From: Oscillatoria salina IIICB1
GTDB lineage: Bacteria > Cyanobacteriota > Cyanobacteriia > Cyanobacteriales > SIO1D9
Length of the DNA stretch: 59,158 nucleotides
Assembly (NCBI RefSeq): GCF_020144665.1
Contig: NZ_JAAHBQ010000037.1
Coordinates: forward strand, 1-59,158
Direction: 5' to 3'
Shown here: one piece after another, positions 8,081-9,809 of the stretch
Position numbering within the stretch: position 1 is the stretch's first letter
How the letters are laid out: each line of letters begins with the position of its first letter
The notes under the pieces: generated by a model
What the model was told of the DNA's origin: nothing
Database searches by the model: none
What the model saw: the letters and a program-made list of their open reading frames with translations, nothing else
Made by a program: the position numbers and the translations under genes

Positions 8081-8581
8081 ATGCACGCCTACAAATCAAT
8101 TGCCTTGTTGAGTCTACTATCAATTGGGCTTACCTTCAACCCCAGCGTAACCGAAGCTTACTCGATCGGCAACAGACTTTCAAGCCCTTTTCTAGGAGAA
8201 AATAACCAAGAAAGCGATAAAAATCCAATCAGACCAAAATGTCCCGGAACTCCAGGATGCGATCGCCGCACCTATATTGAAGCTAAAACTGAATCAGAAA
8301 CAATAAATTTGGTTCTGAAGACAGAAACGCAAGAACGAGCAAGCGGACGCGACAAATTGCCCGTTTCCGGCAGTTTTAGCCAACCTAAGACCAAAGAACG
8401 AGCAAGCGGACGCGATAAATTACCTAACTCAGGTAATCAAGCGCGAGCAAGTGGACGAAGAGAAATTAATAGCCGTACCGAAAACAATGAGAAATGCGAA
8501 CGAGCAAGCGGACGCTATCGGCAGAATCTATCTGTAGATAACTGTCCTTTCAACAGACTCTCTAATTCATCTCCGTTATAG
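8081..8581 (+). CDS. patX: PatX-like secreted precursor with four RASGR motifs
   Basis: The 166-aa protein has a classical signal peptide (MHAYKSIALLSLLSIGLTFN, predicted cleavage near TEA-YS at residue 26). The rest is low-complexity and hydrophilic and holds four RASGR pentapeptides at residues 86-90, 107-111, 122-126 and 141-145. Three are preceded by Glu (ERASGR), and two continue as DKLP. PatX proteins of filamentous cyanobacteria are secreted precursors with an RG(S/T)GR motif, often encoded upstream of hetR, whose processed peptide inhibits HetR. Gene order, signal peptide and motif spacing fit. Having Ala for Gly at motif position 2 in all four copies, and four copies in one precursor, seem unusual to me. 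Cys pairs (CPGTPGC and others) might form a disulfide. Confidence 0.8.
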   Translation: MHAYKSIALLSLLSIGLTFNPSVTEAYSIGNRLSSPFLGENNQESDKNPIRPKCPGTPGCDRRTYIEAKTESETINLVLKTETQERASGRDKLPVSGSFSQPKTKERASGRDKLPNSGNQARASGRREINSRTENNEKCERASGRYRQNLSVDNCPFNRLSNSSPL

Positions 8582-8588
8582 AAAAAAT

Positions 8589-8641
8589 CCCCCATACCTT
8601 TTAACCACCCTAGCTAGCATCTTTAATGGGGGTTTTTTTTT
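8589..8641 (+). terminator. Rho-independent terminator after the patX-like gene
   Basis: CCCCCAT at 8589-8595 pairs with ATGGGGG at 8626-8632 and is followed by a run of nine T residues. It lies just after the patX-like stop codon, so hetR probably has its own promoter. Confidence 0.7.
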
Positions 8642-8909
8642 AGACAGATGGTTAGCGGCGAGCGGAGAGCGGAGATAATCTTTTGGCTGAAACCGCCTAT
8701 TTCCCTGACTTAAGGGGAAATTTCACCAATCGCTCTGCACCGAATGGGTTTTCAGGCTACCATCTTGTTTCTATAATTGTAAATAAGAAATCACTATCGG
8801 GGTGCTTGGATAAAACAATAATGCAAGTAAGCAGAACCCACCCTTGAAAGAAAAAGAACAGTTGGTTACGGAGAATAATTCATCCCGCCGCAATGTCACT
8901 ACTAATGAT
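8642..8909 (+). promoter_or_regulatory. hetR upstream region with candidate promoter
   Basis: This stretch carries no gene. TATAAT at 8772-8777 is a good -10 candidate; no clear -35 box lies 17 bases before it. A short inverted repeat, ATTTCCC with GGGAAAT around TGACTTAAG, lies at about 8699-8721 and could be an operator. I do not see the long inverted HetR site known from Anabaena hetP. Confidence 0.35.
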
Positions 8910-9809
8910 ATGAACAGCGATCTGGATCTGATAAAAACTCTTAGCCCCAGTGCAATGGATCAGATCATGTTGTATCTCGCATTCAGTGCAATGAGAACTG
9001 GCGGACATCGACATGGGGCTTTCTTAGACGCGGCAGCAACGGCTGCTAAATGTGCAATTTATATGACTTATATGGAGCAGGGCGAGAATACTCGCATGAC
9101 TGGACACCTGCACCATATCGAGCCAAAGCGAGTTAGAGCAATTATCGCTGAGGTTAGAGAAGCTTTAGCAGAAGGAAAGCTGCTGAAAATGCTAGGGGCT
9201 TCAGAACCCTCTTATTTGATGCAATTTCCTTATGTGTGGCAAGAAAAATTTCCTTGGATACCGGGGCGATCGCGTGTGAGCGGTACTAGCCTTACTTTGG
9301 AAGAAAAAGCCGAGATTGAGTCAAAATTACCGCCCAATTTACCTGACGCACAAGTGGTTAACTCGCTGCAATTTTCTGAATTGATCGAGTTTCTGCACGC
9401 TCGCTCTCAGGAAGATTTGCCAGAAGAACGTCGGATGGCTCTCTCAGAAGCTCTCGCCGAACATATTAAGCGCCGCTTACTTTATTCGGGAACGGTAATT
9501 AGAATCGATTATGGTTCGGGATTACCTTATTACGCACTTACTCGCATGACTTATTCTCCCGCCGATCGCGAGGAGCGTACTTACGTCATGATTGAGGAGA
9601 CAGCGCGATATTTTCGCATGATGCGTGATTGGGCGGATAAAAAACCGACAGTGATGCGGGTGTTAGAAGAGTTAGACATTCCGCCAGAAAATATCGATCG
9701 CGCGAAAGCAGAACTCGATGAGATCCTTCGTGAGTGGGCAGATCGCTATCATCAACGAGGGGGTAAAACGATGATTTTGCAGATGGCTTTTGGCTTTAAG
9801 GAAGATTGA
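8910..9809 (+). CDS. hetR: HetR master regulator
   Basis: Starting at ATG 8910 the protein has 299 residues, the same length as Anabaena HetR; an in-frame TTG at 8844 would add 22 unconserved residues. The N-terminus contains [20 protein letters not shown] and the block around [20 protein letters not shown], with Cys at position 48 as in Anabaena. At Anabaena numbering it also keeps Ser152, Arg223, Glu253, Glu254, Asp256 and Asp270, the last five being positions I recall as implicated in binding the PatS/RGSGR peptide. HetR is a DNA-binding dimer controlling heterocyst differentiation. In filamentous species without heterocysts it has less-defined developmental roles. The patX-like gene upstream probably encodes its inhibitor. 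Confidence 0.95.

Follow-up and report, generated by a model that had tools for sequence, protein, structure and literature searches.

A PatX-type precursor with four RASGR motifs upstream of hetR in Oscillatoria salina IIICB1

PatX and related precursors of HetR inhibitors

PatX of Nostoc PCC 7120 (NCBIfam NF047413) is described as a protein of 56 aa with one HRGTGR motif that is exported and then processed by PatP, and HetR bound by HRGTGR (88 nM) is reported to be blocked from DNA, while a role in the control of necridia has been proposed for the PatX of non-heterocystous species (PMC12756182). The RG(S/T)GR motif has been described as the sole feature common to the known HetR inhibitors (PMC7761841). 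PatS and HetN likewise carry an RGSGR-type HetR inhibitor motif. To our knowledge, neither of the two is linked to hetR with a PatX-type leader. PatS is characterized as a peptide of 13 to 17 aa that ends in the motif (PMC7476756).

The locus described here lies in a 59,158-nt stretch of contig NZ_JAAHBQ010000037.1 of Oscillatoria salina IIICB1 (the window; Table 1) and represents a known system with a new ligand variant. Its precursor has in common with PatX the leader, the promoter box, the place before hetR and a short motif in low-complexity flanks, but it carries RASGR and not RG(S/T)GR, and it does so in four copies within 166 aa. Several motifs behind the same leader and before hetR are also found in multi-copy PatX-type precursors at surveyed hetR loci (RGSGR four times in L129, five in L133, eight in L203 and nine in L249), though these relatives spell RGSGR or RGTGR and the precursor has neither; RASGR sets it apart and the multi-copy layout does not. 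Genes with KGTGR (L120 and L150) or RGTSR (L140 and L143) resemble it in leader, place before hetR, one changed residue and intact HetR contacts, but they are single copy and changed at position 1 or 4 of the motif instead of position 2. Among the literature searched, we found no cyanobacterial work on RASGR with HetR, judged by title, and nothing on multi-copy PatX or on peptides substituted at position 2, though Elhai and Khudyakov 2018 may describe multi-copy forms.

Promoter, leader and motifs of the precursor gene

The preliminary description of this DNA had reported a frame with four RASGR motifs upstream of hetR on the same strand, and this was borne out with coordinates and residues verified: the frame opens with ATG, its RASGR copies start at residues 86, 107, 122 and 141 (with A before the third and E before each of the others), and its stop lies 328 bp from the hetR start. 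Although the hetR frame is open from a TTG at 8844, its conserved start is the ATG listed in Table 1, which is also where alignments with the HetR of Nostoc and of Fischerella begin. Directly downstream of hetR, the window shows short repeats of the GGGGATT and CCCTAATTCCC types (9825-9995).

Table 1. Features of the patX-hetR region (positions in the window)
Feature	Position	Strand	Basis
patX promoter box: TCCTGA (8016-8021), 29 nt, TAGAAA (8051-8056)	8016..8056	+	shared upstream box
PatX-type precursor, 166 aa	8081..8581	+	ORF, leader profile, motif positions
Signal-peptide-like leader, residues 1-26, cleavage point guessed	8081..8158	+	PatX N-terminal profile
CPGTPGCDRR, residues 54-63	8240..8269	+	alignment with relatives L128 and L362
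RASGR copy 1 (ERASGR)	8336..8350	+	codon-level motif reading
RASGR copy 2 (ERASGR)	8399..8413	+	codon-level motif reading
RASGR copy 3 (ARASGR)	8444..8458	+	codon-level motif reading
RASGR copy 4 (ERASGR)	8501..8515	+	codon-level motif reading
Possible, weak terminator hairpin with T run after patX	8579..8642	+	folding energy
hetR	8910..9809	+	conserved start; HetR domains; contact residues present

A DIF1-type promoter and adjacency to hetR, both of which belong to the definition of PatX, are present. The box upstream of patX genes reads TTTnTCC[TG]GA followed, usually 28 to 29 nt further on, by TAGNNA, and of the 131 hetR-adjacent patX genes with a callable start, 130 have its TCC[TG]GA part no further than 150 nt ahead of that start, the precursor gene included (129/130 for the others). 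Shuffled sequences gave a mean of 7.0 and at most 14 of 131 (200 shuffles), a contrast that is inflated by kinship among the genes relative to independent sequences. TCCTGA, the form found here, is the majority form among the 131, of which only six have TCCGG; as the DIF1 motif has been published as TCCGGA (PMC7377430), TCCTGA may be a form of it. A profile built from other PatX N-termini ranks the precursor first of 311 ORFs (E 2.2e-7; runner-up 0.095), and a whole-PatX profile still matches the ORF with its motifs masked (E 2.8e-5). Sequence and hydropathy suggest a putative signal peptide, and the precursor is probably secreted. Behind the ORF, a hairpin with T run (-16.4 kcal/mol, z -2.2; equalled by 11 of 200 shuffled sequences, and absent from a second scan that allowed loops of 3-8 only) suggests that patX and hetR could be transcribed separately.

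The precursor contains no RG[ST]GR, and each of its four copies departs from the motif of the PatX definition in a single residue, so we class it as a PatX-type variant and not as a standard member. It also scores below the NCBIfam PatX cut-off of 30 (14.9 bits, E 0.034). This miss is not decisive because, among nine PatX-type proteins compared with the same model, L128, L129, L133 and L203 (all four canonical multi-copy proteins tried) and L362 fall below the cut-off together with L120, whereas L140 with its RGTSR passes, as do L099 and L064. The PatX survey of PMC12756182 is described as having demanded scores above trusted cut-offs, which together with the misses of canonical multi-copy proteins suggests that PatX may have been undercounted. 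Promoter box, leader profile, position before hetR and the HetR tree (see below) support the earlier designation of this gene as a PatX variant and, as far as sequence comparison carries, its identity as the patX of this strain.

Within the ORF, the 18-mer GAACGAGCAAGCGGACGC is not a chance repeat, with three copies in the window against 0.03 on average over 100 shuffles (up to three mismatches). A search of the 5.96-Mb assembly for DNA patterns of RASGR with AGY serine gave seven matches, of which four truly encode RASGR, and these are the four copies of the precursor. Residues 54-63 (CPGTPGCDRR) may be a decayed first motif, given that L128 and L362 carry RGCGR at this place. As weak evidence, a single-sequence AlphaFold2 model of the precursor alone, made with no alignment, has a mean pLDDT of 52 with values below 50 across most of the motif region and a predicted hairpin at residues 64-81 as its only confident part.

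Motif number and spelling upstream of hetR

We surveyed 274 loci with a HetR match, corresponding to 229 distinct hetR sequences, from 80 named genome contigs (the best 80 of 308) and from further genomes; this sample is uneven, as two scans found hetR in 236 and 196 of 388 genomes, the places taken from their lists lie mostly outside family f33, and a number of flanks extend only a short way. A same-strand ORF with R[GA][ST]GR lies at most 1.5 kb upstream of hetR in 145 of the 229 flanks, and these ORFs hold 220 motifs: 209 RGSGR and seven RGTGR (216 RG[ST]GR) next to four RASGR, all of which belong to the precursor. The absence of RASGR from the other motif-bearing flanks suggests that Gly2 is strongly constrained elsewhere. 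Frames antisense within hetR (L031/L355) and at the edge of L015 that happen to read RASGR are not patX.

The several motif copies noted in the preliminary description proved to be a real feature that the precursor shares with many canonical relatives, since 26 of the 229 flanks, its own included, have two to nine motifs in one ORF. Family f45 is multi-copy at 15 of its 16 loci (the remaining one is devoid of a motif ORF), and single and multiple states interchange at least six times on a quick HetR tree (FastTree, 221 rows), so that multi-copy precursors appear to be a recurrent style and RASGR is what distinguishes this one. The patX-type ORFs of L203, L249, L133 and L073 carry their motifs in near-regular repeats of 10-21 residues, and L073 has two RDSGR copies beside its four RGSGR. 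Apart from itself, the precursor protein found nothing better than weak matches across 388 genomes of the order (next best E 0.008), in a search that is nearly blind to short motifs.

On the same tree, the window's HetR falls into a clade of seven rows (SH 97) in which a patX was detected for just two further rows, L128 (two RGSGR) and L129 (four); none was found in the remaining four rows in the DNA covered. The ERGSGR copies of L129, the last one following a Cys, resemble those of the precursor, and L362, also of family f28, has RGCGR and one RGSGR. By identity, the closest HetR is that of L082 (77%), where the promoter box and an upstream FAD oxidoreductase are kept (745-1500; synteny, 52% over 243 aa) and no patX ORF was found before hetR. 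The grouping of the strain's HetR with family f28 loci and Spirulina sp. (L031), together with a nifH above its curated cut-off in the genome, suggests that the strain is probably filamentous, nitrogen-fixing and non-heterocystous.

Altered motifs do occur elsewhere. A leader-profile scan of the 84 loci with no motif ORF in range revealed the KGTGR and RGTSR genes upstream of hetR in family f11, with HetR contact residues intact at all four loci, and placed canonical patX genes of L138 and L139 just past 1.5 kb with a decayed tandem copy nearer hetR (KRRGERR and KRNSPRR in L139 and L138). Tandem pairs of patX-type genes are found in L138, L139 and L154, with a motif-less hetR-proximal gene in the first two. 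The preliminary description had staked its case on hetR-adjacent homologues keeping an RxSGR motif, and this holds only in part: two loci with KGTGR, two with RGTSR and two with decayed tandem copies lack it, which reveals a motif less fixed than first assumed but does not refute the precursor gene itself.

HetR, candidate donors and the reading of RASGR

All four RASGR copies use the Ala codon GCA; an 18-nt stretch recurs unchanged in copies 1, 2 and 4, and copy 3 departs from these within the motif by two silent changes only. Copies 1 and 2 also have the flank DKLPxSG in common, whose D, L, P, S and G show silent differences. That motif DNA is more alike than flanking DNA points to recent homogenization or constraint. 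The preliminary description had argued that a change present in all four copies looks selected, an argument that we find weak because copies sharing one Ala codon and near-identical DNA are not independent; a single substitution later spread over the copies fits as well, and four separate Gly-to-Ala changes need not be assumed. The same DNA identity would suit a relaxed or lost ligand, in which one Gly-to-Ala change was spread by duplication or conversion, inhibits HetR poorly and belongs to a patX that is being lost, as would the missing patX of L082 behind a retained promoter box and FAD oxidoreductase, the four further clade rows with no patX detected and the decayed copies at L073, L138 and L139. 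Four intact copies with only silent differences, an intact frame, leader and promoter and the intact contact residues of HetR make this course of events unlikely in our view.

The strain has a single HetR match in its 5.96-Mb genome, with both the S48 and hood domains of Pfam and a strong match to NCBIfam PRK13245 (E 1.3e-161). In the crystal structure as described, PatS6 pairs through main-chain bonds with HetR strand beta-3, and both of its Arg and its Ser contact acidic residues of HetR (PMC4649674). These ligand residues are all retained in RASGR, and so are the PatS6-contacting residues R223, E253, E254, D256, D270 and D278 in the strain's HetR. Since these named residues are unchanged, a compensating change in HetR was rejected; the 228 other HetR sequences all have R223, E253, D270 and D278, while E254 is replaced in 29 of them and D256 in one. 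Flap residue 203 is an unusual Ser, but this position also varies in nine other sequences, seven of which have a detected patX, none with RASGR. PatX of a non-heterocystous strain might instead act on a target other than HetR, with the motif tracking another receptor, as deletion of patX or of hetR in Leptolyngbya BL0902 is reported to have given transcriptomes that suggest independence of the two (PMC11298460). The close linkage to hetR in 145 of 229 flanks and the reported binding of HRGTGR to Nostoc HetR (PMC12756182) make such a separate receptor rather improbable.

No small leader-bearing ORF with RG[ST]GR was found among pattern matches in the assembly. Two sets of patterns that between them allow for Ser or Thr at position 3 gave 15 and 17 matches at 29 distinct places, five of which translate to RG[ST]GR: four opposite longer frames of 68-696 codons and the fifth in a 40-codon frame with no leader. 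A genome-wide scan with NF047413, relaxed to E 10 and unspecific at that setting (12 of 14 control genomes also gave matches), returned four weak matches, all below the cut-off, and no second patX; they included the precursor (20.4 bits) and a place with an internal stop (21.8 bits); no RG[ST]GR or RASGR frame was found at the three loci other than the precursor. A canonical donor could be hidden in a gap between the 163 contigs, making the RASGR gene a redundant side gene, but with an estimated completeness of 99.99% and the pattern search above, we consider this very improbable.

The RASGR peptides are most likely the strain's own putative HetR inhibitor. In the reading that we favor as reasonably probable, the gene is the strain's patX, and its product would be exported, after which a periplasmic peptidase (in Nostoc, PatP) would free several hexapeptides from it, ERASGR or ARASGR. 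These would bind the HetR hood domain and take HetR off the DNA, which is the effect of ERGSGR and HRGTGR on Nostoc HetR. A precursor with four motifs would yield a higher dose of peptide, and Ala in place of Gly at position 2 would be tolerated, or mildly tuned, by this HetR. Supporting this reading are the promoter box, the leader profile, the multi-copy clade-mates L128 and L129, the contact residues kept in ligand and receptor, the restriction of motif differences to silent ones and the outcome of the search for canonical donors. Counting against it are the lack of RASGR in other surveyed flanks, the shared GCA that permits spread with no selection for Ala, the missed NCBIfam cut-off and the apparently hetR-independent effects of patX reported for BL0902 (PMC11298460). 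That the lineage has switched its HetR morphogen from RGSGR to RASGR, with a four-copy precursor and no canonical donor left, appears doubtful to us.

For the family, the survey means that hetR-linked PatX often carries two to nine motifs and that the NCBI cut-off missed every canonical multi-copy protein tried. A natural genome in which RASGR is the only donor candidate found makes it possible to test directly at which positions HetR senses its ligand.
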